Source of the DNA: Chrysomallon squamiferum
Taxonomy: Eukaryota; Mollusca; Gastropoda; Neomphalida; Peltospiridae
Direction: 5' to 3'
Length of the DNA: 64,000 bases
Assembly (NCBI GenBank): GCA_012295275.1
Contig: CM022673.1
Span: forward strand, 7,530,311-7,594,310
This document shows positions 1,899-63,453 of the stretch, one piece after another. The notes beneath the pieces were generated by a model. That model ran no database searches, was not told the origin of the DNA, and worked only from the letters and a program-made list of their open reading frames with translations. Positions within the stretch are counted from its first letter, which is position 1, and every line of letters starts with the position of its first letter. The position numbers were made by a program, and so were the translations under genes.

Positions 1899-45395
<43,497 letters not shown>

Positions 45396-45514
45396 ATGAA
45401 TTTATTTAGAGGAAATATTCAAACAACGTTATTTTCCCGCATTTCTTTACGTGACCAGTTTTGGGAAAACAAAACGATCACAGCGAGTTTCCGAAACTGC
45501 TCCGGTGTTTACAG
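45396..45514 (+). CDS. Gene 2 exon 1 (candidate first exon)
   Basis: The ATG at 45396 follows an in-frame TAA at 45393. The frame MNLFRGNIQTTLFSRISLRD stays open to a consensus donor TTTACAG|GTAAGA, leaving two bases that complete the first codon of the exon at 46410. The sequence CCCGCATTTCTTTACGTGAC through the donor is almost unchanged in copy B, including bases beyond the donor. A second frame is also open here, and copy B has lost the ATG. A non-coding first exon or promoter is therefore a real alternative. Confidence 0.4.
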
Positions 45515-46153: not shown

Positions 46154-47095
46154 CATCATCATCGCCAAGGCTTATATTTAAAAATAAAAATAAATTAAAT
46201 AAAAAAATAAAAAATATTCTTTACTAAGTGGCAAAATATTAATTTCTTTAGTTGGTTTCATTTTCCTTATGAACATATTATAAAGCAGCAAACACTTTTC
46301 TGTGTGTTCTTATTATGTACATGCGTCCAAATCCATTAAAAAAAAAGAGTTAATTTATTCATTTGTTATATGGTTACGTTTTGATAGTTTTATATCGTTT
46401 TATTTTTAGTACTGAAAATAAAAAACCTGGGAAAACATTAGACGTTGAACTGTCATCAAATTTTGACTCAAACCAAACCAAGTCAGTAAACAGACTGAAA
46501 GACAAAATGAGTGGATACACTGTAAGTACTGAACCCTGTCATCTGAACCTTACACTTCTCATATCTATGACTGAAGTTATTAAAAAAAAAAAAAAAAAAA
46601 CTGTCTAGTAGTATCAGATATATATTTTTAATTACCTATTTTATAGTTTTATTATACAAAATATTTTAATGTATGCATACTTTAGTATATGACTAAGTAA
46701 GATTTCCACTTTAATATCGTGTTTTCAGAACAATGGTAGTACAAGAAAACTACCAACTTATGAATTAAACAACATTCTTAATGACACTCTAAAAACGAAC
46801 ATGGTGAGTCCATTTTAGTGATGGTGAAATTTTAATAGTAAAGTTTGCATGTTGTTGTTTTTTTATTATTATTTTTTTTTTTAGTTTTCTTTTTTCCATT
46901 TTCTGTGAAACAAAATATCATGTACAACTTCCTAAACCAATATTTCTTAAATTTATGAATGAATGAAATTTATGTATTACCCATATTTGTAGTGAAAATA
47001 TCAAAGTTCATTATTTTTTCTGTTGTATATTGCATATTACAACTTTAAAACATCATCAAGAATGAACTTGGATTTAATATATTTTTAAATAATGG

Positions 47096-47126
<31 letters not shown>

Positions 47127-50100
47127 CACATATACTCGTGAATATAAATGTCCCTTGATTAAGAAAATCATGACCTTTTTTCAGTTTAATAAATTATTTC
47201 TGACATACTTTAGAAAGTATCCATAACCATGGAATGTATTTTCTTATGTATGGAAAGATGTATATAAAATATTTTTTCTGTTATTCTTAACTATATACAA
47301 TATCTGTAGATTTAAAGCAGTCTTCAGTGAATTGCAAAGTAAAATATTTCTTTCTTTGACAGATTGTGAATGAAGAAAATAGCTTTTCTTATCCAGTGAA
47401 CAAACTAACCCTGGTGAAAACTGAAAAAAAGCGCCTAAAGAAATCAGATATGAAGTATGTAAATTTGTCAGAACTGGATGCAAACAAGCTTGAATATGAA
47501 TCTGAGGTATAGTGCACCAATAAGCCTATGTTTATATATTGCAAAAAACAAAATAATGATAATAAATGAACCAACAACATAAGGAGCTGATAAATTAAGC
47601 CCTTAATATGTTATGTGGTTAGATTTACTTCAGTTCTTGAAAACTTAACTCAGATTATGGTTGTAGGATCAATCCTTGGCAGGTTCACAGAGCTGCTGTT
47701 TTCCCCTATCAACCGTTACTTCTAATTCATAATGTCAGTAATCTCTTGCTGGAATGCACAGAATAAAATCTGAGTGGATGATGAAGTGAATTTGTTAAAT
47801 CATGTGCACCACATTGTTCAAATACAGAGTTTATTTTTGTTGTGACTAAAGTGATTTCCTGTACCATGTTGAAATCAGCAGATTTGTGGCAAGAGATTTT
47901 GATTAAATGGTGTAAAATACCACACCTTTAACGTTTATGGTTATAATGATAATGTATGCATATTTAACTGCTCTGTGTGTGTGTGAGTGACAGAATGTGA
48001 AACATTACAAAACAAAATTTTTAATTAAATGTTTATTACTTTACAGAATGATGAACTCATTATGTCAGTTGAAAAGGTTTGTTTAATTTTATATATTACA
48101 CAGTTGTTTTATTATTTTAAATAAGATTATTTTCTACATCTAATCTAGCAAAATTGAAAGAGAGTTCAGTTAGTCTTCACATCAATAAGTTTATAATTTG
48201 GTTTGTATTTTTGGTGGGTGGTTTTTTGCTTTGTATTCAAGTAAACCATCAGTTTTCCTTGCACATCTGGCAGTTTGATGTATATATCCCATGTATTTAA
48301 TGCAGATAGAAATTTAAATTAAATAAATATTAAATGGAAATTAAATGACTAAATACCATATATTAGTATTGTACCAAAAAAATTAGGTTGTTAAATATAA
48401 GAACAAAATATACAATTTTTTCTAAACCACCAGTGTCTGGAAAATTGATTGTGTACCTGTATCTAGTTATTTTAGGTATATGCTTTTTAATGAAAATAGT
48501 AAATCTTTCAGTTGAAACATAATGATAGTTCAGCAGTGACAGCTTGTAACTTTAAAATCTACAAAACATCATATGCTATTTTCATTATTGCTATTGATCC
48601 TGTGTTCAGTTATAATTCATATCTGTATACAGAGAGGTTATGTTACAAAAAGATTCAAGTAATATTCAATGTACATAAAATTATCTGAATGCTGAAGATA
48701 GTGTGTGTTTGTGTGTGTGTGTGCGTGTGTGAGTGACTGAATGACACATTTACAACTTAATTTAAATACAAACCAGTATACTGTGTTTGTATCCACAGAA
48801 GAAGAAGGTTCAAAAAAACGTACGAAGTGATCCTGTCAAAAAGGTTTGTTTGTTTTGCTGTGACAATTAACACTAACTATTCTATGTGAATGTCTGACCT
48901 TTATGTCCAGTTTTCACTCTTACCATTATCTTCCTTTATCACTGTGTTACTTTTATGTTCATTTGTCACTGCGTTACCATTATGTTCATGTGTGACTGTG
49001 TTACCTTTATCTTCCTTTATCACTGTGTTACCTTTATGTTCATTTGTCACTGTGTGTTACCTTTATGTTCATTTGTCACTGTGTGTTACCTTTATGTTCA
49101 TTTGTCACTGTGTGTTACCTTTATGTTCATTTGTCACTGTGTGTTACCATTATATTCATTTGTCACTGTGTTACCATTATGTACATTTGTCAGTGTCACC
49201 ATTATCTTCATTTGTCACTGTGTTACCTTTATGTTCATTTGTCACCTGTTAGCTTCCTGGATAAAAGGTCTGGTACTTAGACTACATCATACATTTTGTG
49301 TCTCTATGTATTTGTGTGTATTTTAATATTTTATAGGAATATTAGATATTATGGCTAAATCACACATTTATTTTAATACATTATAATTAAGCAAGATAAC
49401 ATATAATTGTAGTTTATATGTGTTTTTCACTTTGAAGCACAATTTATGGTCAAGTTTCAATATATTGAGATCTGAATTTACTATCTCCAATATAATTTTT
49501 ACATAAATATATTTTTGAATTGAAAGTGTCATGTTGTCTGTGTATATATGTTTGTCTTCCACTGACAAATTTAGTACATAATTTCAATGGAAACACAAAC
49601 TTCATTTATGTTGCAGCCGGAAAGTGCTTCCAAAGAAGTACAGGTTGACCTGAGCAAAAAGGTTTGTTTATTTTGTTGTGATAATTAGCACTAATCAACA
49701 CCATCATTAAACAATTATAATGTACAGCAGTCACCTTGACATAATATCAGTTGTCACCATGTTATTGATTGTTGCTCAGATATGATGTAGTTCTCACTAT
49801 ATGACCATAATGTTGAGTTTTCATTCAGTCACAATTATTTTCATTTTATTCAATTGTCACTTCATAACTAATGGGTTTTAATTAGCATTTTATGTCTGTT
49901 ATGTTACTGTATAACCAGTGCATTTAGTTGCTACTGTGCTTTCAGTGTTTCAGTTGTCATTATGTAATCAGTATATCAAATTGTCTCTATGTAACTAGGT
50001 CACTTTGTAGCCATCATGTTTGTCTGTCATTATGTTGCCAGAGCATTCAGCTGTCACTATGTAACCATTAGTTTGAGGTGTCACTATGAAACTAATACAT

Positions 50101-51513
50101 TCAGTTGCTACAGTATATACACAATGTTCATTTGTCATTGTTCCTAATGATAATTAACTGTAAAGAATATGTATTATTGAGACAGCTTGCTTTAGTTTTC
50201 TTGGAGTATGTTTGTTTTTTCATTTTCTTATGTGTCTGCATATCTGTCTGGTGTACTTGATATTTGTTTTGCCTATGTTCCCCAAGTTTGTTCCCTATCT
50301 GTGTAATATGGCATAACTTAGAATAACAGGATGATGATATCAAAGAAGAGGACATTGATCTAAATAAAAAGTTAGTTTATTTTACAGTGGCCTTTTTACA
50401 GAATCTGCCTCTTAATGTCATTTGTCATTTTGTTTCTCTTTTGATTCCCAACAATATAATTTTTCTTTACAGTAACATTTGGTTGTTGTTGTTGTTGTTT
50501 TTTTTGTTGTTTTTTCATAGTAACTTTTGATTAGATTTACTGTAAATTTGTTGTTTGAGATTAACATTTGTTTTGTGGGGTTTTTTGTGGGGGTTTGTTT
50601 TTTCACAGTAATATTTTGTTTTGTTTTACTGTAACATTTCTTTGCTTTGGGTTTTTTTTCACAGTAATATTTGTTTTTCTTCACAATAAAATCTCAATAT
50701 TGTTTACAATCATTCAAAATGAAATTAATTCCTTTTGAAGAATATCTTCAGAGTCCATGACTCCTATCACTGTTTAGTTTTATTACATTATATGTTAATT
50801 TTCATCCTTCAGAACAATAAATGGTGAAAATTACCTTTTTTCTGTTTATTTAAAATACATTATCACAGTCTGTATTAAGTATATTAATAAAAAGTTATAA
50901 ATACTGGTGTATGGTATTAAATGACTGAATTTGAATTTAAGTACAAGAAGAATTAGTATGCTATACTAATTCAAATGTATTTAGATGTACAAAGAAGGAC
51001 ATTTCTCTGATAGTTAGATCTGCAGGTAATGAACCATTTATCTAGCTTCAAACAGTCCCTGCATTGTTTATTTTTCATGTTTTATTTCATATTTGTATTG
51101 AGCCTTCCAAAATTCCAGCAAAACCAGAAATTGGGACCACCTCTGGTTCCAAGCTTGCCGGATAAATGGTTTGGTTCCTGTATAACAAAACCACTCATTT
51201 TTTCTGTCTCTGATCTTTGATATATTTTTTTTCATGATAGATGACGTTTCTCTATAGAGATGTAAAATAGATCATTCAAATTATGTTTATATTCATTTAG
51301 TTTAGATTATTATAAAAAAATTATTTTATTTTAAAGATGTTGAATAATAGAGAATTGTTTTTATTTATGATTTTGTTTCCATTTCAGGTTTCACAATTAC
51401 GTTTAAAGCAGAAACAGAAACTAAAAGAAATGGAGGAAGAAAAGAAGAAGTTTGAAATGAAATTACTCGAAGACAAACATATCAAAAGAGCTGTAGATTA
51501 TATGCAGCAATGA
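45396..51513 (+). CDS. Gene 2: small Lys/Glu-rich coiled-coil protein, family unknown
   Basis: Proposed exons: 45396-45514, 46410-46521, 46729-46803, 47363-47506, 48047-48076, 48799-48843, 49617-49661 and 51388-51513, all GT-AG. The first junction is phase 2; all later ones are phase 0. The sum is 696 nt, or 231 residues, with no internal stop. The protein is hydrophilic and rich in Lys, Asn, Ser and Glu. It has no signal peptide or membrane segment as modelled and ends in an about 35-residue charged coiled coil (KQKLKEMEEEKKKFEMKLL). It is probably intracellular. I do not recognise the family. The whole unit is duplicated at 56.7-63.4 kb. The first exon is the least certain: the exons from 46410 onward could instead be 3' exons of gene 1. 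Confidence 0.55.
45785..46153. repeat. (ATT)n and (TTA)n tracts in gene 2 intron 1
   Basis: (ATT)n at 45785-45822 and (TTA)n at 46095-46153. Both have partners in copy B (57825-57852 and 58134-58197) with different lengths. Confidence 0.93.
46410..46521 (+). CDS. Gene 2 exon 2
   Basis: 112 nt between acceptor TTTATTTTTAG and donor ACT|GTAAGT. It encodes TENKKPGKTLDVELSSNFDS and a further 17 residues to KMSGYT. It begins with one base of a codon, so it can accept either the gene 2 exon 1 donor (45514) or the donor-like site at the gene 1 stop (43618). If exon 1 is non-coding, the ATG at 46507 could start a shorter protein. Copy B keeps only the first 40 bases (58502-58541) and no donor. Confidence 0.6.
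46729..46803 (+). CDS. Gene 2 exon 3
   Basis: A 75-nt phase 0-0 exon, acceptor GTGTTTTCAG and donor ATG|GTGAGT, encoding 25 residues with STRKLPTYELNNILND in the middle. Its partner in copy B is 58828-58902, same length and open. The two differ at 9 bases, and 6 of the 8 changed codons replace the amino acid. Confidence 0.68.
47363..47506 (+). CDS. Gene 2 exon 4
   Basis: A 144-nt phase 0-0 exon, acceptor TCTTTGACAG and donor GAG|GTATAG. It encodes 48 residues including VNKLTLVKTEKKRLKKSD and LSELDANK. Its copy B partner, 59261-59407, is one codon longer. By hand count 32 of 144 aligned bases differ, changing 23 codons, 22 of them non-synonymous, while flanking introns are nearly identical. 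Confidence 0.7.
47590..47900 (+). repeat. Possible tRNA-derived SINE in gene 2 intron 4
   Basis: A box A-like TTATGTGGTTAG near 47611 and a box B-like GTAGGATCAATCC near 47664 lie about 50 bases apart, as in tRNA-derived SINE heads. They are followed by unique-looking body sequence. The same sequence is present in copy B at about 59528-59850, so it predates the duplication. The boundaries are guesses. Confidence 0.3.
48047..48076 (+). CDS. Gene 2 exon 5 (30-nt micro-exon)
   Basis: Acceptor ATTACTTTACAG, donor AAG|GTTTGT, phase 0-0, encoding NDELIMSVEK. Its donor and first intron bases (GTTTGTTTA) resemble those of the exons at 48799 and 49617, so it may be an older member of the same multiplied exon set. 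I found no copy B partner. Confidence 0.5.
48799..48843 (+). CDS. Gene 2 exon 6 (tandem exon unit 1)
   Basis: A 45-nt phase 0-0 exon encoding KKKVQKNVRSDPVKK. The downstream intron start GTTTGTTTGTTTTGCTGTGA closely matches that of exon 7 (GTTTGTTTATTTTGTTGTGA), showing that exon and flank were duplicated together with an 818-base period. Confidence 0.58.
48915..49250. repeat. 29-bp minisatellite
   Basis: About 11 units of 27-29 bases with core TTACCTTTATGTTCATTTG and TCACTGTG. Units are nearly identical in the middle. The open frames over it are artefacts of a period close to a multiple of three plus AT richness. It is absent from copy B. Confidence 0.9.
49617..49661 (+). CDS. Gene 2 exon 7 (tandem exon unit 2)
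   Basis: A 45-nt phase 0-0 exon, acceptor TTATGTTGCAG and donor AAG|GTTTGT, encoding PESASKEVQVDLSKK. Its copy B partner at 60996-61019 is 24 nt (EKSTSNQK), shorter by 21 nt in frame. That fits selection to keep the reading frame. Confidence 0.6.
49700..50150. repeat. Diverged TGTCACTATGTAACCA repeat array
   Basis: Imperfect 25-40-base units around TGTCACTATGTAACCA and TGTCATTATGTTGCCA fill this intron. A related array is present in copy B at about 61080-61540. The pure 29-bp minisatellite at 48915 looks like a fresh expansion of the same motif. Confidence 0.6.
50330..50371 (+). pseudogene. Broken tandem exon unit 3 of gene 2
   Basis: After acceptor TTAGAATAACAG, a 42-base open stretch encodes DDDIKEEDIDLNKK, matching the size and C-terminal charge pattern of units 1 and 2. 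The sibling donor AAAAAG|GTTTGT has lost a G here (AAAAAGTTAGTTTATTTT). Using the remaining GT would end the exon in phase 2 and give a stop a few codons into the last exon. It is probably skipped, or it makes a truncated isoform. Confidence 0.45.
51023..51180. mobile_element. Small MITE-like element with terminal inverted repeats
   Basis: It starts CAGGTAATGAACCATTTATC and ends with the near inverse complement GGATAAATGGTTTGGTTCCTG, about 20 bases of imperfect inverted repeat around about 115 bases. Related ends occur at 62994-63091 (internally shortened, carried by the segmental duplication), at 19273-19345 and, degenerate, near 49250 and 60620. No transposase is present. CAGG ends suggest the Tc1/mariner-pogo type, as inference. 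Confidence 0.45.
51388..51513 (+). CDS. Gene 2 terminal exon: coiled coil
   Basis: Acceptor TTCCATTTCAG, 41 codons and a TGA. It is Lys/Glu/Leu-rich (KQKLKEMEEEKKKFEMKLL), a typical single-helix or coiled-coil segment, ending AVDYMQQ. Copy B keeps only the first 12 codons, with acceptor CAG changed to CAT, and that dead stretch is almost unchanged in sequence. It is a useful internal contrast with the fast-changing live exons. Confidence 0.68.
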   Translation, partial: VSQLRLKQKQKLKEMEEEKKKFEMKLLEDKHIKRAVDYMQQ

Positions 51514-52861
51514 AATTTGTCAGTAACATATCTAATATAATTATTTCAGAACTGTAGAAAACGGTACCTCTTGATTAAATACTAAACTGAAGACATCTTT
51601 CGCTCAAAACTGACTACTCAGTCACAGAATTTGTAACATGAAAACTAAGTTGTCAATTTTTAATATTTCACTAACACTAAGTAAGAATATGGACTGTTAT
51701 TTTTATTTCAAAATGTTAAACAAGAAACCTGACTGGCATGATTTGAATATTTCAGTAACACTAAATAAGAAAATAGTTATTGTAACAAGAAATGTTATTG
51801 AGCTGCATGTTTGATATTTCACTGTCACTAAGGTCATATTCTTTTTATTGCAAAGCCAGCTAATTAATTTTGATTTCTGTTTAGTTCAAGGTTTTCAAAC
51901 GATCCAAGCTACAAACCATATACTGTACACTACATAGTAGTTACTGTTTTACTTTACAGCAATATCTGATGGGTCAGTAAAGATAATTTATTTACAGTTT
52001 CTCCCATCTTACTCTTGAAGTTCGTTAAAAATCAAAATTCTTCAGTCTTCTACAAAGGCAGTAAAGTAATTAGGTCGAAAATTTGAGAGTCGAGATAATG
52101 TTGATTCTAAAACATTTGGGAATCAGTGTTTCACGTCATCAGAATGTTACATACTAAAGAATCCAAACCTAGACTTTGATTTGATTTGAACCTTTAAAAC
52201 CTAGTAAAATCATAACCTACATTATTTGTTTCACAGGTATTTGCACAAATGAATTGTGGCCTTAGGTGTTCAGTTTATAATTACTGTGGTGTTTCTGGGG
52301 TTTTTTAAGAGAATTTTTCTGTAACCAAGTTAAATTCACAAACACTTATTATTATTTCACAAATATAAGAAGAAAAATTACTGGATGAAATTTGATATTT
52401 AACTGATTTCAAATAAAAATAAAAAAGTTCTGGTTTATTTTGTCAGAACCTGTTATGTGAAAATTGATTGACAATCTTTTAGAAAGTAATCTTAATCAGC
52501 TTTTATTTGAAGTTTATGATGTGTTTATTTGTTTTGTTTTGTGTAAAAGGGAATTCCAAATCATAATAAATAATGATTAATCATTCCAAAAAATTATCAT
52601 ATTTATCATTCATTAGACTGAACGTATAAAGTATTGATAAATGTTAATTTTTGATTTTTGTTTTTACCACCTCACTGAAAAACAATTAAATTTGTTTATT
52701 AATATAAATATAATTGTATTAAGTACAGTATCTCCAAATACGTTACAAATATATGTGTCATGTCTTTTAATGCCATGAATTGGAGATTTCTGGGGTAGCT
52801 TTAAACCTTTGACGGCTGAGTGTGGAATATTTAAAATGTCTGTTACAACTATAAAGTGTTG

Positions 52862-53120
52862 AGGAACCCATTGAAATTTAACTGCATTTAAAATATTTAC
52901 TCGTCAACACATTGAGATTTATCTGCATTTAAAATATTCACTCATCAAAACGTTGAGATTTATCTGCATTTAAAATATTCACTCATCAAAACGTTGAGAT
53001 TTATCTGCATTTAAAATATTCACTCATCAACACATTGAGATTTATCTGCATTTAAAATATTCACTCATCAAAACGTTGAGATTTATCTGCATTTAAAATA
53101 TTCACTCATCAAAACACAGG
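52862..53120. repeat. 41-bp minisatellite
   Basis: About six units with core TTTAAAATATTCACTCATCA followed by AAACGTTGAGATTTATCTGCA. Two unit types alternate (AAACGTTGAG and ACACATTGAG), which suggests block duplication of several units. Confidence 0.92.
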
Positions 53121-53259
53121 TCAAACCTCTTGCTTTACATAGGAATATTTTACACTGTTTGACCTTTTTCCCTGACTGTAGGGATTGTCACATGATTACA
53201 AATAGATTTTTTTTTTTCAAAAATATAGAGGGCATGCACATTTGTATTTACAAGTAAAG

Positions 53260-53610
53260 TATTAAGTGATAAATTCACAAGATAATTAAATTATAGTCAA
53301 TAAATTACAAATTAACAACATGTAAAACGATAATTTGTTTGCAGTTACAAATTTATAAGAAACAAAATTATAATTGAATTGTAGTTTCAAATTTACGATA
53401 TACAAAATGATACTTTAATTTTAGGTACAAATTTAGTAGATAAGATAATTTAATTCTAGTCAATAAAATTAGAAGATAAAATAACTAAATTCTAGAAACA
53501 AATGAACAAGATGAAAGATGATAATTTAATTGATTATACAACATTTAATTCTAGTTACAAATTTACAACATATAATTTAATTCCAGGTACACATTTAAAA
53601 GGTGTAAAAT
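53260..53610. repeat. Diverged 45-60-bp AT-rich array
   Basis: Repeated TAATTTAATTCTAG, TTACAAATTTACAA and AAAATGAT blocks recur at irregular 45-60-base spacing. It is probably an old minisatellite. Confidence 0.5.
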
Positions 53611-54108
53611 GATGATTTAAGTCAGAGTTGTTTCTGTTACACTCCGTCCAGGTTGTTACGATTATGTGATATGTTTGTAACAGTGATGGTGTCATTTGTA
53701 ACAATGAAGGTGTTTTTGTAATATTGATTAAACCATTTCCAATGATATATATGATTTGCACAGGATAAATTCATTTGCTCAACTGTAAATTTAAAAATTC
53801 TTGCACATTTCTGTACAGTTGATTTTGTTATGTTCTAGTGTATACCGGTGGCTTAAATATTTACTTATAAATATTTCTTTTCAGCAGTGGGCAGGAATAA
53901 GAAAATTAGAAGTAGCAGATGCTGGTATATTATTTCAGTTAATAGAGGTGGATAAAAAATAAAGGTTTATAATTTTAGACAAACATATATAATTTAAGTT
54001 TTATTAAGTACTTTACAAGAAAATATATTAAAATTTCAATATTATTTTCCAAATATACGAAGTTTTAAAGTTAAATTCAAACAAGGAAAAAAAATACTTA
54101 ACATTTTT

Positions 54109-54146
<38 letters not shown>

Positions 54147-54875
54147 TTTTATGCTTTGGATTTGGGTATTTTCTGTTTGTAAATATAAGATATAGATATA
54201 CATTTATATATGTTTATGCATATGCACCAGTTTTTTACATTTTTCTATTCTGTAATAATATTTACAGCAATCAGTTTATATAAACATAATCTTTTAGAAT
54301 CACAGAAGTATATTAAAAGACGTCCGAGTTACTCTGTTTCCACACTGTGAGGCTTGTAATAACAGTCTGTAGCAATTAAAGTTTACCAAAAATGGAATAT
54401 ATTTCTATACTTAAATAAAATAAAATTTTCAGTACGATATATTCATCCATAATTTGTTTTGGTACAAAATTCATGAGAATACAACAACAAAAAACAAACA
54501 AACAAACAAAAACAATAATCAGCTCATGCTACAAAGTAAAAATAAATCTAAGGGACGTAATTCTTGTTACTTTTAGAATCTTACATTTATGGTTGGAAAT
54601 GGGTCACATTTTAATTGTTACAGCTAATATTACATTTTAGATTATCGGAGTTGGCATGTTACAAGTTATATGGTGAAAATATTGCTTTATGAATGTGTCT
54701 GAACTGTTATTTGCTGATTAAGTTTAAGACTAAATTATTTAATAATACCGTTTACTTTGCTTCTTATCTTTTTTATTTTTTTATTTTATTATTATTAAAA
54801 TGTTGTTTTTTTCATAGATTTAGGAAATTTTTTTTATTAATGTCATTAATAATTGGGTAAATTTTTTCAGGGTAG

Positions 54876-54921
<46 letters not shown>

Positions 54922-55333
54922 TGAAGTTTCTTTTAAAATGCATTTGCTTTTTTTAACAATCATTGACATCATGTGCATTGTGAATGGCTTTAAAACGTTT
55001 TTGTGTGGTAAATATCACAGCTTTCTTTTAAATTAATTTTAATTTTTAAAACATTTTATATGCCCTCTTTTTTAAACTATATTTAATGTGTGTAAATTAT
55101 TTACTGGTAGCATTTCAGTAATTCTCTAACTTTTTTCTTTTGTTAACTATCTTAGATACAGATTAACTGTGTGATAGACAAAATATATATGAAGATGATG
55201 TTTATAGATGCTGTAAATTTCTGTATGTTTGTGAATAATTCACTCTAATATTTTAATTTAATAAATAATATGTCACAGACTGTTTCGCTTTTTATTTCTC
55301 AGTTATATAAAAAACAAATAACAATATTGGGTT

Positions 55334-55370
<37 letters not shown>

Positions 55371-57444
55371 GTAGAAAATGACTAATTCATCCTATAAGTT
55401 ATTCAAGAGAAAATTTAGTTTATTGAAAACTGAAAACAGAAACCACATTATCTTTTTAACATACCTGTTTTGGAATTCAGTTTAAAAACAAAACAAAACA
55501 GACAATTTGTAGGAAGAACGTACATTTTATTTATCCTAGCTTTTACCTATTTCTGTAGGTAACTCATTTAAAATCCAGTCAGTTCTTCTGTTAGTTCTCC
55601 TTTAAGCCATGATGGAAGTGTATTTTATAATTTTAACTGTATTTTGGTGTATTTTCTTCTATATTGTACCAAGTGGTGTTGCATTTTTATCAGGTAGAAT
55701 GAAGGTCCAAGAGGCTCTGAACATTTCATGTAAGCCAGAGAGCCACGATAGCTGCGCCTAATACCCACTGCCTGCCTTGTGTTTTTTATCTCTTCATCTT
55801 TTTTATTTCCCTTGTTCAGTCAGAATACATAAAATAATGGAATCCGATTTATACTTGCAATAGTCCCAGAATTGGCTGGGTTATATATTCTTTCACCACA
55901 GTTCAGTATTTTTCCATTAGATAGAACCACTTATTGTTTTGATGAAACAGGTAGGAATGTCAAATATAAATTGTGAGCAACCATTTCCAGTACAATGTGC
56001 AATTTCTAGTTGTTTTGTAAACTGTCAGCTTGGGCGTCAGTGTATAGTGTTGTGGATTTATGATTCCTTGTAATAGAACAATTTACAAATTTAGAAATTC
56101 TAACCAAACAGTAAATAGCAAACTACTCTTGGACTACATAGTGAAGAATTTAAACCGTAATAAAATCAAGAAAGGATCAATGGAACACGATGAGTACAAG
56201 GTGATACAACTGACAGACTCGACTGAAAGTTCTGTATAAAATGTAAACTGTAAATTCAAACCTTAAAATATGTATTATAGAACAATGCTATTGAATGAAA
56301 AACAAGAAGAGACAAAAAAGACAACCACGTAATTCAAGAATACTTATATTTTATTCCCTATGAGTTAAATTTTGTTTCTACAATGGATTAATAACTGTGC
56401 ATCTGATCAAGCACTGAAATCCTGGTATTAGCACCTCAGACACTAAAACCAGTCAAGATAATTTTTTTCTTTCATTTTCATTCTCTTTTTGTTTCTATTA
56501 TTTATTGATTGATTGATTGATTTATTTATTTATTTATATTTTAAAGTATTCTATGAAAATATCCAGTCGTCGTATACAAAATAGATAACTTCTTTGCAGT
56601 CCTGTCCACACTTTCTGCCACAATATGAAATCATTTAACGTCACCAAACTTTTCTCCAGATTTGGAGAATAATAATAATAATGACAATAATAAAACTGGT
56701 TATTAATCACTACTGAATTGTTGTTGGTTTGGGGGGGGGTTGTATCTTCCTAATCTTCTAACATACTAACCTAAAACAATCCTTGGGTTGACATTCCAGC
56801 TTTTTGATTGGGCCTATGAGTGAAAGTTATATCATCCCAAGAAAATAGCAAAATCCTTACTGTAAATGACGTAATTGTATTGTAGGTACATACCTAACCT
56901 TACGCGTAATTCCATCATCAGAAATGTTAGGTTTCTATCAGAGACTCTGGCTAGTGAACGAAAAAGTGAGATGTTAACAATCGTGAATAAATTCTTTACA
57001 TTATATATATATTTTTTTAAAACTGCTGCAGCTATCCTTATAATAGAAATAAAAGGACTGATGTAATAAAATCTTCTCACGTGTGGATTTCATACAATAA
57101 TGGAGCTATTTCTCGTTCCAGCCTGACCTTACAAATAATGTTTGTCATGATGTGTATACTATATTCTGTATGAGATAATGTATATAAAATTGTTTTCCCA
57201 TGTTATCTGATTGGTTCTTAATCCTGAGTTCTGTAAATAAAATGTACTGATGTTAAATAAACATTTATTTCCTTTCTTCGAACCCAACACTTTCCATTAA
57301 TTATTTCAAAAGCATGAAATTATTAGTATTAGTTACAAATAAGAGAGAAATGAGGGGAACATAATAAAAAGAGTATCATAATGAAAAAAATAAAAAATAA
57401 AAAACAAGAAGAAATGGCACAATCTTAAATAAAATTATGTAGAG

Positions 57445-57547
57445 AAATATTCAAACAACGTTATTTTCCCGCATTTCTTTACGTGACCAGTTTATGGCAA
57501 ACAAAACGATCACAGCGAGTTTTCCGTAACTGCTCCGATGTTTACAG
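57445..57547 (+). pseudogene. Copy B of gene 2 exon 1, coding potential lost
   Basis: The donor TTTACAG|GTAAGA and surrounding sequence are preserved. The ATG position is changed, one G is missing upstream, and a T is inserted (GAGTTTTCCG versus GAGTTTCCG), so the frame used in copy A is broken. If this exon is only a 5' leader, these changes would not matter. Confidence 0.5.
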
Positions 57548-57820
57548 GTAAGAAAGAGCTCGAATTTCGGTTTCTATGTACAGATTTATTTACTGCAGCT
57601 AATATGCATAATCACTGTGGGTTTTTTATATTTTTTATACGTATATATATATATAAATTTTCTTTTATAGGTATCATAAAAATACCGTTGGTTTTGTGTT
57701 TTGAATACGTGCTTTTGCGTTTTTATAAATAACGAATGTGTTATAGATAGCGATCGTTTGATAGTTGTCGCGTTGTCGTAAATGTAACAAATATTCTTTT
57801 GTAGATAACCGTAACTGTTG

Positions 57821-57852
<32 letters not shown>

Positions 57853-58132
57853 GGGAAAATCATTATTTAGGGAAAAACATAATGTTGTATTATTCAATAT
57901 ATAAAAATTTATAATAAATAATAGTAACGAAACTGAAGTCGTATGCATTTAATTTTTTTTTTTTTTATATATAACAAAATAATAATTGTTTAAGTTATTT
58001 AGCTAATTATCTAAATATTAACATAGTCTCAGTTGAAGTAAAAAGGTAAAGACACTTTGACACTGTTATCTGACATTGTTTATCTAGATGTCCTGAACCA
58101 GAATATTCTTGGAGGTCTTATGTCGTTGGGCC

Positions 58133-58199
<67 letters not shown>

Positions 58200-58501
58200 A
58201 CTGCCAAGGATCACATTTAAAAATAAAAAAATAAAAACATATTTTTTACTAAGTGGCAAGATGTCAATTTTTTTAGTTGGTTTCATTTTCCTTATGAACA
58301 TATTACATATGCAAATAATATTAATTTTAATTAAATTCATTCTTGTTTATTTATATATTTTTCATCAGTTACTCATATCAATGTGTTTATAATTTAAGTG
58401 ATTGTTTGTGTGTACAAATTATTTAGCAGCAAACACATTAATGGGTGTTCTTTTGGTGTACATGTATCCACATGCATAAAAAAAAGTTAGTTTATTTATA
58501 G

Positions 58502-58541
58502 TGCTGAAAATAGAAATTCTGGGGAAAAATTAGACCTTTAT
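58502..58541 (+). pseudogene. Remnant of gene 2 exon 2 in copy B
   Basis: About 40 bases after an intact TTTATAG acceptor match exon 2 (GAAAATAGAAATTCTGGGGA). The match then stops; about 70 bases and the donor are gone. It is probably not spliced. Confidence 0.55.
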
Positions 58542-58827
58542 AATGCATTGATTTTATTTTTAGCGTTGAAAAAATTTTTTTTTTTTTTTTTTTGACAAAA
58601 CTAATTTCTTTAACAAGTAGTTAATCAGTGTTACCTTTTTATAGATGAGAAAAATATTGCTATTCTAAAATCAATTTACACATATATATATATATATATA
58701 TATATATGAGAAAATAGTTATCAGTTTATTAAACAAATGAAATTTATTAGCATGTTTGTTACCAGTTTTAACAATTAGAACAAGTATATGACTAAGTAAG
58801 ATCTCCATTTTAATATTTTGTTTTCAG

Positions 58828-58902
58828 AACAACAGTAGTACAAGAAAACTAACAACTTATGAATTAAACAACATTTATAACCACAATCTAAAAATGAACA
58901 TG
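58828..58902 (+). CDS. Copy B exon 3
   Basis: 75 nt, phase 0-0, acceptor TTGTTTTCAG and donor ATG|GTGAGT, open. It encodes 25 residues containing STRKLTTYELNNIYNH. It has same length and signals as copy A, with changes concentrated in the second half of the exon. Confidence 0.55.
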
Positions 58903-59260
58903 GTGAGTACTTCTGTCCATTTTAGTAATGGTGAAATTTTAATAGTAAAGTTTGCATCATCTTGTTTTTCTCTTTTCCTGTGAAACAAAGCATGTACAGT
59001 TTCCTAAACCAGTATTTCTTAAATTTATTATTGGTTCATCCAATAATGAATGAAATTTATGTGTTAGCCATATTTGTAGTGAAAATATCTAAGTTCATTA
59101 TTTTCTCATACTTCAGAAAGCATCCAAAACCACGGAATGTATTTTCTGTGGAAAGATGTACATAAAAGATTGTTGCTGTTATTCTTAACCATATACAATA
59201 GCTGTAGATTTAAAGCAGTCTTCGGTGAATTGTGAAGTAAAATATTTCTTTCTTTGACAG

Positions 59261-59407
59261 ACTGAGAATGAAAATGCTGACGTTTCTAATACAGTCAAAA
59301 AACTAACCCTGGTGAAAGATAAAGAAAAGAACCTAAAGAAATCAGATCATGTGAAGTATATAGCTTTCCCAGAACTGGATGCAAACAAGTCTGAATATCA
59401 CTTGAAG
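59261..59407 (+). CDS. Copy B exon 4
   Basis: 147 nt, phase 0-0, acceptor TCTTTGACAG and donor AAG|GTATAG, open for 49 codons. The blocks KLTLVK, LKKSD and ELDANK are shared with copy A, while the residues around them are heavily replaced. One codon (CAT) is inserted in frame. Confidence 0.58.
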
Positions 59408-60382
59408 GTATAGTGTACCAACAAGCCTATGTTTACATATTTCAAAAAAATATAATAATAATAATAAATGAACCAACAACATAAAAAGACCTTAATATGC
59501 TATATTTAGCTGGAGAAAAACAGGTTGTTATTTGGTTAGATTTAATTCAGTTCTAGAAAAATTAACTCAGACTATGGTTGTAGGATCAATCCTTGGCAGG
59601 TTCACAGAGTTGCTGTTTCCCCTATCAACCTTTACTTCTAATTCATAATGTCAGTAATCTCTTGCTGGAATGCACAGAACAAAATCTGAGTGGATGATGA
59701 AGTGAATTTGTTAAAGCATGTGCACCACATTGTTCATATGCAGAGTTTATTTTTGTTGTGATTAAAGTGATTTCTTGTACCATGTTGAAATCAGCAGATT
59801 TGTGGCAAGAGATTTTGATTAAATGATGTAAAATACCACACCTTTGGTGGGTGTTTTTTTTGCTTGTTTTATGTTCAAGTAAACCATCAATTTTCGTGAA
59901 TACTTTATTCAAAAGCCTCTCAGGACCAAAAGAGGTGAAATAATAATAAAAATTCAGAAACGCACATCTTTCAGTTTGATGTATACATCCCATGTATTTA
60001 ATGCAGCTAGAAATTTAAATTAAATAAATGTTAAATGGAATTAAATGACTAAATACCGTATATTAGTACAAACTGTATCAATAAAATTAGGTTGTTAAAT
60101 ACAAAAACAAAATATTACATTTTTTCTAAACCACCAGTGTCTCGAAAATTGATTATGTACATGTATCTAATTATTTTAGGTATATGCTTTTTAATGAAAA
60201 TAGTAAATCTTTCAACTGAAACATAATGATAGCAGTGACAGCTTGTAACTTGGAAATCTTCAAAACATCATTATTGCTATTGATGCTATGTTAAGTTCTA
60301 ATTAATATCTGTATACAGAGAGGTTATGTTACAAAAAGATTCCAGTAATATCCAATGTATAAAAATTATTTGAATCTGAAGA

Positions 60383-60385
<3 letters not shown>

Positions 60386-60426
<41 letters not shown>
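60386..60426. repeat. (TG)n microsatellite in copy B
   Basis: A pure TG tract. The copy A counterpart near 48705-48735 is short and interrupted. Confidence 0.93.
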
Positions 60427-60427
<1 letters not shown>

Positions 60428-60995
60428 TGAATGACACATTTACAACTTAATTTAAATACAAACCAGTGTACTGGAATAACTGGAATTACTGGAAAAGAGG
60501 CTTTAGAAGTGTATTAAACTGTATATGTCAAATACAGTTTTATTCTTACTTTCTCATTATTTATTTTATATTTAAACTATTTATTAAGCCTTAGTCCAGA
60601 ACTTCAGATCACCTCCATTCCCAAAGCTTCCTGAATAAATGGTCTGGTACCTAGACTTCATCATAGATGTTGTTCCTCTGTTTATGTATTTGTGTGTATT
60701 TCATTATTTTATAGGAATATCAGATATTATGGCTAAATCACACATTTATTTTAATATATTATAATTATGCAGTATAACATACAATTGTACATTAATTATG
60801 TATTTTACTTTGATGCACAGTTTATGGTTAACTTTTAATGTATTGAGATCTGATGTTCCAATCTCCAGTATAATTTTTACATAAATATATATTTTTAATT
60901 GAAAGTGTCGTGGTTGTCTGTGTGTATATATGTTTGTCTTCCACTGACAAATTTAGTACATAATTTCAATGAAAACACAAACATTTTTCTTGCAG

Positions 60996-61019
60996 GAGAA
61001 AAGTACTTCCAACCAAAAG
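60996..61019 (+). CDS. Copy B exon 7 (24-nt micro-exon)
   Basis: Acceptor TTCTTGCAG, donor AAG|GTTTGT, encoding EKSTSNQK. It is shortened by seven codons relative to copy A without losing phase or splice sites. A micro-exon this short is a tentative call. Confidence 0.42.
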
Positions 61020-62843
61020 GTTTGTTTATTTTGTTGTGATAATTAGCACTAATCATTACCATCATTAAAAAATTATAGTGTACAGCTGTCACCTTATCAT
61101 AATATCAGTTGTCGCATTGTTATTGGTTCTTGCTTTATTCATTATGTCCAGTATCATTATATTGCCAGTTATGATGCAGTTCTCACTATATGACCATAAT
61201 GTTGAGTTTTCATTCAGTCACAGTTGTTTTCATGTTTTTCAATTGTCACTTCATAACTAATGGGTTTTAATTAGCATTTTATGTCTGTTATATTACTGTG
61301 TAACCATTGCAATTAGTTGCTACTGTGCTTTCAGTGTTTCAGTTGTTATTATGTTATCAGTATAAATATGCAACTAATATGTTCAGCTGTCACTTTGTAG
61401 CCATCGTGTTTGTCTGTCATTATGTTGCCAGTGCATTCCGCTTTCACTATGTAACCATTAGTTTGAGGTGTCACTATGATACTAATACATTCAGTTGCTA
61501 CAGTATATACATAATGTTCATTTGTCACTATTTATATTAAGACCAGTAATTCCTTTTGAATCAATATGCTATGTTTTTTTGACTTTATCTGTAACCAAAT
61601 GATCACTGGTTTAACATAATTTCTGAATGGACTACAAGCTTTTTAGAAATTTGAAAATATCTGCTTATTTTATTATGTGTAATGTGCAGTGAATTATGAT
61701 GTGAATTTAAAAATACAGTTAAAAAGATTTCTCGATATTTAAAATTTAAAAAGGTAATTTCTTTTCTTTTCTAAAATCATTGTGTTTCCAAATAAAAGAA
61801 GTCATTTTTTTTAATTATCCATTTTATAATTATCATTTATCATTAAAGCATCCATGTTACCTATGTGTCTGTCTACATATTGTATCTCTATCAATAAATC
61901 TCTTTAAATCTATTGATCTATATAATATATCAATTTGTCCAATAATGATTGGTATTCAATGATAAATAACTCTGAGACTGAAATAATTGTGTTTAACATT
62001 AGAAGATTTTCATTTTTATGATTTATTTACTAGCAGCAAAAAGAAATAATTATAATAACTTAAAAGAAAAAGAAAAGGGAAAGACGGTTTGTTTATGTAT
62101 GTTATTTAAATATAATGAAACTGAGTGATTAAGAGAAAGAAACAAATTGCATGTAATAGAAATAAGTCAGTTAACTGTTATTGGAAAACAAATCTATGTA
62201 AAAGGTGGGTTTTTTCCCACAGAAATGCCAGGTAATCCAATCCCAAAGCTTTGGTTGTTTTTATGTCTTATATTAGCACACTGCTTTGTTTATTAGCTAA
62301 AATAACAATCATAATAGAAATAACAGTTATAATAATTACTGTATATTTGTAATTTAAATAAGTCATTATTATTATTATCAGAATTATAGTGACCGAATTT
62401 TGGTCAGAATTTTAAATTATTTTATTTTAAAATCTATTTCCTTTTTTTTTTTCTTTTATCTTTTATCTTCTTTGTAGATTTTTGTTTGTATTTCTTCTTA
62501 TTATTATTATTATTTTTTTTTTTTTTTTTTTTTTTTTTTTATTAAATTATATGTTAATTGTCATTCTTCAGAACAATAAATGGTTTAAATTAGCTTTTTT
62601 CTGTTTATTTAAAACGCATTATCGCAGTCTGTATTAAGTATATTATTAAAAAGTTATAAATACTGGTGTATGGTATTAAATGACCGAATTTTAATTTAAG
62701 TACAAGAAAAATCAATATCCTGTACTAATTCTAATCTGTGTATAAAGAAGGACACCTCTCTGATGGTTTGATCATTAATGTTAATGTTGTTGGTATCTTT
62801 GATTAACTGGATATTTTCATTAATCTGATTGGTTTTTTTTTAG
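61020..62843 (+). other. Copy B intron, no further exon seen
   Basis: It contains the diverged TGTCACTATG array (61080-61540), plain AT-rich DNA, and a T-run at 62512-62540. Near 62570 a CTTCAG|AACAATAAATGG is shared with 50810 in copy A. It looks acceptor-like, but no donor follows. Confidence 0.5.
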
Positions 62844-62903
62844 AAAGAAGTATCTACAGTATTAGGAAGCAACATGATGGCAAATAAAAAACTAAAAGAC
62901 ATG
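62844..62903 (+). CDS. Copy B 60-nt exon, unit 1
   Basis: 60 nt, phase 0-0, acceptor TTTTTTTTAG and donor ATG|GTAATA, encoding KEVSTVLGSNMMANKKLKDM. No equivalent remains in copy A, where about 230 bases are absent between TCTCTGATAG and the MITE start. A second copy follows at 63394. Confidence 0.5.
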
Positions 62904-63330
62904 GTAATATAAATTATACATTATATTTTGTGGTAATAAGATTTGGAATCACATACATACTCTCTCTCATTTCTTTTATTTTCTGTCTGACTGCAGGTAA
63001 TGAACCATTTATCTGGCTTCAAGAAAGCCAGCTATTTTTAATCTGGACCACCTCTGGTTCCAAGTTTGCTGGATAAATGGTTCGGTTCCTGTATAACAAA
63101 ACCAATCCTTTTCTCCTGATCTTTCAATTCTGTTTTTCTTCTGTGTCTCAAGACTTTTCTTTTGTATGATAGATGATTTTTTTTTCTATAGAGATATAAA
63201 ATAGATAATTCAAAACAATTTTTATATTCATTTAGATTAAATTATTATAAAATTATAATTTTATTTTAAAGATGTTGAATAATATAGAATTATTTTTTAT
63301 TTATGATTTGTTTCCATTTCATGTTTTAGA

Positions 63331-63366
63331 ATTACGTTTAAAGCAGAAACAGAAACTAAAAGAAAT
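63331..63366 (+). pseudogene. Dead fragment of the gene 2 terminal exon in copy B
   Basis: The first 12 codons after the acceptor region match the copy A coiled-coil exon essentially base for base. The acceptor CAG has become CAT, and the fragment runs straight into a duplicated intron and 60-nt exon unit. The original stop and most of the coiled coil are lost. Confidence 0.65.
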
Positions 63367-63393
63367 TTTTCATTAATCTGATTGTTTTTTTAG

Positions 63394-63453
63394 GAAGAAG
63401 ATAATATTGTATTAGGAAGAAACATGAGGGCAAATAAAAAAGTAAAAGAACTG
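63394..63453 (+). CDS. Copy B 60-nt exon, unit 2
   Basis: A tandem duplicate of 62844-62903 with period about 550, phase 0-0, acceptor TTTTTTTAG and donor CTG|GTAATA, encoding EEDNIVLGRNMRANKKVKEL. It differs from unit 1 at 12 of 60 bases, in nine codons, all non-synonymous. The flanking intron bases differ much less. Further units may follow past the window. Confidence 0.5.

Follow-up and report, generated by a model that had tools for sequence, protein, structure and literature searches.

A three-copy tandem gene in the snail Chrysomallon squamiferum whose protein is probably under recurrent diversifying selection

Genes in which amino acid replacements outrun the changes in their own introns are uncommon, and they flag recurrent selection. 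Many of the well-known animal cases are secreted, and comprise gamete, venom and immune proteins. The toxins of venoms are secreted, and many are cysteine-rich. In the sperm genes of abalone, studied by Metz et al. in 1998, replacement changes reportedly exceed intron divergence, as the title of that study has it. The acrosomal proteins of abalone are described, in passages of two further papers, as tandem paralogues under positive selection (PMC9022041, PMC2704960). For the micro-exon genes (MEGs) of schistosomes, the relevant part of one report states that all products have a signal peptide, and gives 1.10-1.14 as the three highest ratios of replacement to synonymous divergence (dN/dS) in the mature region (PMC4350168). 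The bicycle genes of aphids, according to a section of another, have phase 2 exons and CYC motifs, and many of their proteins have signal sequences (PMC9168663). Accelerated change in coding regions is reported, in portions of two papers, for the toxin multigene families of snake venoms (PMC2711939, PMC2474615). Here we describe a gene array in the gastropod Chrysomallon squamiferum, found in a stretch of 64,000 nucleotides that we call ‘the window’ (GCA_012295275.1, contig CM022673.1, positions 7,530,311 to 7,594,310 of the forward strand; G000:C9:7530311-7594310 in the 404.6-Mb, 22-contig assembly that was searched). We put at roughly 0.85 the probability that this is a three-copy tandem gene whose protein is under recurrent diversifying selection. 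Replacements have been fixed ~2.7-3 times faster than neutral intron change. The signal is uneven: exon 4 shows it most strongly, and for the terminal exon and a 60-nt exon there is less certainty.

Exon and intron divergence in the array

The original prediction for this DNA saw two copies of a gene, with exons that diverge several times faster than their introns, and took diversifying selection to be the cause. Self-BLAST of the window, together with a full alignment, places the tandem duplication on the same two stretches, but the array has three copies rather than two. A DNA search of the whole assembly with the exon-4 region finds them on one contig at a spacing of ~11.9 kb. Copies A and B lie inside the window, and copy C lies 11.9 kb further on, at 68.7-79.5 kb in window coordinates continued past the end. 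No further significant copy outside the array was found in DNA and protein searches of the 404.6-Mb genome; of the 12 matches that the A protein gave at E values up to 10, 9 are within the array, and the other three have E values of at least 1.7.

The counts on which the prediction was built reappear unchanged in our recount. Exon 4 of A and B differs at 32 of 144 aligned bases, with 23 codons changed, 22 of them by replacement; exon 3 differs at 9 of 75 bases, with 8 codons changed, 6 of them by replacement; the pair of 60-nt exons within B differs at 12 of 60 (9 codons, all replacements); and the intron stretch with which these were compared, 47650-47930, differs at 11 of 280. That stretch, at 3.9%, is a low point and not typical: alignable non-coding DNA averages 10.2% between A and B (360/3539), and intron and flank blocks present in all three copies average 8.5% (203/2402). 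The latter figure comes from five of seven blocks, without the upstream one and one alternative for exon 7; its exon-9 block includes 3' flank. The exons are indeed faster, but only 2.0- to 2.2-fold in raw divergence, and 2.5- to 4-fold at the replacement sites of exon 4.

Counted by NG86, divergence at replacement sites (dN) is 0.276, 0.209 and 0.237 for the pairs A-B, A-C and B-C (114, 154 and 135 codons), and divergence at synonymous sites (dS) is 0.113, 0.121 and 0.114. Intron divergence (K) for the same pairs, over the five three-copy blocks, is 0.090, 0.087 and 0.095. In the full alignment, which had been proposed as a check on the prediction, intron divergence is below exon divergence. 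Exons 3, 4, 7 and 9 enter the A-B comparison; A-C adds exons 5 and 6, and B-C takes 3, 4, 7, 9 and one pair of 60-nt exons. Replacement sites stand above introns in each pair (Fisher p = 7e-12, 2e-8 and 4e-9, in the same order), and no difference from introns is seen at synonymous sites (p = 0.49, 0.33 and 0.54). By exon, dN/dS is ~4 to 6 in exon 4 in all three pairs and, depending on the pair, 0.75 to 1.8 in exon 9 and 0.7 to 3 in exon 3. Exon 7 of B has 6 replacements in 8 codons relative to A, the placement of the gap being a matter of choice (5/24 differences or 6). Changes unique to one branch are more frequent in exons than in introns and flanks on all three: 40/368 versus 89/2402 for A (p = 6e-8), 33/368 versus 105/2402 for B (p = 4e-4) and 26/368 versus 100/2402 for C (p = 0.012).

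A joint likelihood fit, in which introns and codons share the branch lengths and kappa on the three-copy tree, takes its codons from exons 3, 4, 5, 6, 7 and 9. Not included are the coding part of exon 2 (15 bases, the same in A and C), candidate exon 8, which only A has, the 60-nt exons, exons 5', 6' and 7 of C, and exon 9 of B past codon 33. Omega in this fit is 3.05, and neutrality is rejected with a likelihood-ratio test statistic (LRT) of 75.6 (p = 3.6e-18); a single rate for synonymous sites and introns is not rejected (p = 0.53). This main fit excludes simple repeats and windows of low identity. A rerun that restores them, with 2539 intron columns, gives omega 2.72 (95% confidence interval 2.15-3.39), and branch values of 3.5 for A (p = 2e-7), 3.5 for B (p = 6e-7) and 1.7 for C (p = 0.047). 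The excess of replacements is clear on branches A and B, and weak on C. Exon 4 alone has omega 3.9 (p = 6e-13, or 2e-5 when it is given a free rate of its own), and exon 9 alone 3.85 (p = 1e-9).

Exons might look fast without selection if gene conversion had homogenised the introns, and the exons, having escaped, were simply older. Similarity between the introns is in fact a mosaic. B and C are the closest pair in the exon-3 block (5/213) and A and B in the exon-9 block; in the exon-7 block and, narrowly, in the exon-4 block, it is A and C. Non-coding changes unique to a branch are, moreover, heterogeneous across six blocks (chi2 47.4, 10 degrees of freedom, p = 8e-7). From this mosaic we infer, indirectly, an exchange of sequence among the copies through unequal crossing-over and gene conversion. 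Older exons would, however, hold old synonymous changes, and dS, at 0.11-0.12, is close to the intron rate. When a separate exon-wide rate is allowed, omega rises to 3.75 and the neutral value of 1 is rejected (LRT 19.6, p = 1e-5), although for exon 9 alone the corresponding model is not (p = 0.07). The excess is also tied to a single reading frame: for exons 3, 4 and 9, with branch lengths fixed, the true frame has an LRT of 19.1, and the five others, which are shifted by one or two bases or lie on the opposite strand, have 0.2-3.1. We regard homogenised introns as a very unlikely cause of the excess.

Equally, the exons might sit on a local hotspot of mutation, owing to transcription, DNA structure or repeats. 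Non-coding windows of 144 filtered columns reach as many as 29 differences (the maximum among 3464); with simple repeats kept, 1 window of 3787 reaches the 32 of exon 4, which is exceptional all the same, and some bins of the flanks stand at exon level. A hotspot would raise synonymous changes to the same degree, and these are not raised. For exons 3, 4 and 9, the 25 nt of flank next to the splice sites diverge by 4-5%, versus 19% in the exons; constraint on splice signals contributes to the low value there. We find a hotspot scarcely credible. Replicates internal to the array show the same excess. The duplicated 60-nt exon of B differs at 12/60 versus 7/132 in its flanks (p = 0.003), the second copy of this exon differs from that of C at 11/60 versus 6/127 (p = 0.004), and exon 3 has 7/75 differences between B and C, versus only 5/213 in the introns of that tract (p = 0.016). 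Diversifying selection, the cause originally proposed, accounts best for these results, and survives the addition of the third copy, the near-equality of synonymous and intron rates, a free exon rate, wrong frames, unfiltered introns and tests by branch.

Gene models, copy B and points against selection

The gene models of the three copies list 24 exons. The listed coding exons span 15-147 nt, and the internal exons are modelled in phase 0. Frames and splice sites had been described as kept, and for the most part they are: 23 of the 24 exons are multiples of three, the exception being the terminal exon of B, and all applicable splice dinucleotides are intact save the donor of the duplicate exon 5' of C, which is broken. 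In the gene model for copy A, seven coding exons joined in phase 0 give a protein of 159 residues. Copy C carries the start exon, listed exons that are open, a local duplication of exons 5-7 and one 60-nt exon; with one choice of the duplicated exons, and with 5' omitted, its model gives 209 residues. An in-frame TAA upstream of the ATG in exon 2 of C supports MSGYT as the start. The 60-nt exon occurs twice in B and once in C, and was not found in A. A short piece of terminal exon in B, held by the prediction to be dead and essentially unchanged, does match A at 36/36 bases, but it is an extra fragment, B having a terminal exon of its own (Table 1).

Table 1. Features of copies A and B, in window coordinates
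Feature	Position	Strand	Remarks
Copy A, putative 5' untranslated exon 1	45440..45514	+	no ATG; 3' border is a GT donor, AG|GTAAG border identical in B; 5' end approximate
Copy A, exon 2	46411..46521	+	start codon ATG at 46507 (MSGYT); 5' border placed from an AG acceptor, probable; same ATG exon in C; ATG side without counterpart in B
Copy A, exon 3	46729..46803	+	75 nt, phase 0-0
Copy A, exon 4	47363..47506	+	144 nt; positive selection strongest
Copy A, exon 5	48047..48076	+	30 nt; no excess over flanks
Copy A, exon 6	48799..48843	+	45 nt; no significant excess over flanks
Copy A, exon 7	49617..49661	+	45 nt
Copy A, candidate exon 8	50330..50370	+	no aligned counterpart in B; shifted donor would disrupt the frame; likely to be skipped or dead
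Copy A, terminal exon 9	51388..51513	+	includes stop; accelerated
Copy B, exon 3	58828..58902	+	
Copy B, exon 4	59261..59407	+	147 nt, one codon more
Copy B, exon 7	60996..61019	+	21 nt shorter than in A, in frame
Copy B, 60-nt exon, first of two	62844..62903	+	
Copy B, extra terminal-exon fragment	63331..63366	+	not the terminal exon of B itself
Copy B, 60-nt exon, second of two	63394..63453	+	
Copy B, own terminal exon	64325-64449 (extended coordinates)		125 nt; just beyond the end of the window

The array also contains tandem repeats. An intronic minisatellite with units of 27 and 58 bases lies 3' of exon 6 in A (48897-49245), and is longer in C (extended coordinates 74580-75470); none such appears for the B part of the window in the tandem-repeat listing. 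Downstream of copy A, at 52869-53116, is a 41-base tandem repeat in six copies.

Several observations weigh against selection as the explanation, and the first of these concern copy B. In the alignment with A it lacks the ATG part of exon 2, nothing in it aligns with exons 5 and 6, and its frame is shifted near the C-terminus; it may be a dying copy or a pseudogene. Translation of B could begin, on our own reading, at the ATG that closes exon 3. The assembly of the scaly-foot snail was made from nanopore and Illumina reads, according to a passage of PMC7142155, and a run of A lies beside the frame change at the C-terminus, so that this change could be a sequencing error. The defects of B are what relaxed constraint would lead one to expect, one or more of the copies being pseudogenes that drift. 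Drift, however, lifts the replacement rate to that of the introns and not above it, and omega is 2.7-3.0 with a lower bound of 2.15. Copy A, which is largely intact, has an omega of 3.5 on its own branch, and frames are kept in all but one of the 24 listed exons. Relaxed constraint strikes us as highly improbable.

Other points of this kind are statistical. Within the exons alone, dN greater than dS is weak in each pair (p = 0.02, 0.07 and 0.03 for A-B, A-C and B-C). Exon 3 alone is not significant (omega 1.8, p = 0.08), and exon 9 alone falls short of significance once it has its own free rate, as described above. All p-values are approximate, since sites are taken as independent and conversion between copies is ignored. 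The first 60-nt exon of B differs from that of C at 10/60 versus 11/129 in the flanks (p = 0.08). For exons 5-7, six comparisons with flanks yielded nothing significant: C5/C5' (2/30), A5/C5 (3/30) and A6/C6 (3/45) are below their flanks, A6/C6' (p = 0.51) and C7/C7' (p = 0.43) are level with them, and C6/C6' is above (5/44 versus 4/104, p = 0.09). Divergence is 19-24% in three 25-nt bins of flank at a distance of 75-150 nt, and 33-47% in two 3' bins more than 350 nt off, which are probably repeats or misalignment. Neutral decay, it had been argued, would give stops. The true frame of exons 3, 4 and 9 has 0 stop codons versus 8-39 in the five wrong frames, but in simulations of neutral change the probability that no stop arises is 0.01 for 78 changes from C, 0.07 for 40 and 0.13 for B, and the stop-free frames are modest evidence only. 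Finally, transcription and splicing of the exons are deduced from the DNA itself, and the intracellular conflict considered below is suggested by protein composition only.

Protein features and possible function

The A, B and C proteins are 38-42% charged and strongly hydrophilic, contain 0-2 cysteines, and are classed as disordered by the charge-hydropathy line. A signal peptide is not evident in any of the three: by hydropathy, and no dedicated program was used, there is no strongly hydrophobic stretch of 15 residues, the highest 15-residue mean being 0.25-0.42. Replacements in exons 3, 4 and 9 alter the chemical class of the residue in 30 of 45 cases between A and B, 32 of 48 between A and C, and 33 of 45 between B and C, proportions for which no chance expectation was computed. 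The motifs KLTLVK and LKQKQK are unchanged across the copies, and TYELNNI is also fixed.

Searches for relatives of these proteins were negative. The A protein has no match in Pfam up to E = 1, a distant membership of the lysin family, below the reach of Pfam, being possible, and against ~5.8 billion predicted proteins it gave 86 candidates, none of them a match up to E = 10. With the three-copy alignment, the best 8000 candidates from the same collection were scored, and none matched up to E = 10; the C protein found no match among PDB sequences. ‘Orphan’ status is provisional, because eukaryote genes may be scarce in that collection of proteins. The family is perhaps lineage-restricted.

Abalone lysin was the likeness first drawn, and it extends to the evolutionary pattern alone: neither a signal peptide nor a lysin domain was found. 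Selection for gamete recognition, acting as it does there on a secreted sperm or egg protein, seems to us unlikely. The evolutionary signature is that of the abalone sperm genes, going by the title mentioned earlier, and tandem duplication with positive selection is likewise described, in the passages already cited, for the acrosomal proteins. Against this, the proteins of the array have no hydrophobic N-terminal stretch and few cysteines, and copy A has no Pfam match. Egg_lysin is unmatched in this genome, but it is unmatched in all of the controls too, so its absence shows little.

A mechanism consistent with recurrent diversifying selection on this protein can be outlined. Judged by its composition, the protein would be cytosolic or nuclear, and largely disordered. 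It may bind an antagonist or partner that is ever changing, so that its contact surfaces are pushed to change as well; selection would then keep altering the central part of exon 4 and the charged exon at the C-terminus, as well as, probably, the 60-nt exon, whereas the fixed motifs might do a constant job. With all exons in phase 0, whole exons could be gained, lost or skipped without damage to the frame. We infer that intracellular conflict, whether in chromosome segregation or gametogenesis, between host and virus, or between host and symbiont, is more likely than a secreted gamete-recognition protein. It is conceivable, and we suggest it tentatively, that the array represents an undescribed orphan family of molluscs: non-secreted, charged and modular, with small phase-0 exons, whole-exon turnover and amino acid diversification ~3 times as fast as neutral change. 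It would then be the sign of a hitherto unrecognised genetic conflict inside the cells of a snail that is probably from hydrothermal vents, for example over meiotic drive, antiviral defence or the control of endosymbionts. Because the gene looks intracellular and no relative has been found, identification of its partner would reveal the conflict that drives it. The array is a natural experiment, with three copies, gain and loss of exons, and one copy that may be dying.

Neighbouring features and known systems

Upstream of the array, at 29250-43622, are large open stretches rich in serine and threonine, with a hydrophobic segment, noted by eye, at ~42330-42410 and a charged stretch after it; the arrangement suggests a gene for a membrane protein. 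We suspected it to be KIAA1549-like but do not claim this; a profile search with PF12877, for the suspected family, found no match in this genome or in any of the control genomes, and so decides nothing. Nearer the start of the window is an inverted pair of ~320 bases, 84% identical, at 13506-13829 and 16686-17002, which is possibly a small mobile element. Beyond the window is a run of exactly 5000 N (extended coordinates 112501-117500). Elsewhere in the genome, G000:C6:24882028-24951449 holds, in a single cluster, all 27 matches to PF14830, the mollusc-type haemocyanin family; these mark the genome as that of a mollusc.

A literature search that joined ‘faster than introns’ with ‘positive selection’ returned no paper titled for such a gene family. 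The array shares with aphid bicycle genes short internal exons that are nearly all of one phase, rapid divergence of the protein, and homologues that are hard to find by sequence. Its internal exons, however, are in phase 0, and it has no evident signal peptide and 0-2 cysteines. With the schistosome MEGs it has in common small, skippable exons of symmetric phase, a protein that changes at an accelerated pace and, perhaps, restriction to a lineage; it differs in having no evident signal peptide, and in an omega of ~3. Snake venom toxins resemble it as multigene families with accelerated coding change, but here, again, there are 0-2 cysteines and no evident signal peptide. It also resembles abalone lysin and sp18, in which, as here, replacement reportedly exceeds intron divergence among tandem, positively selected paralogues of a mollusc; the differences are that in this array there is no evident signal peptide and no Pfam match, and that its many tiny phase-0 exons encode a charged, probably disordered protein. 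On present evidence, the array would belong with the known tandem genes that evolve under positive selection.

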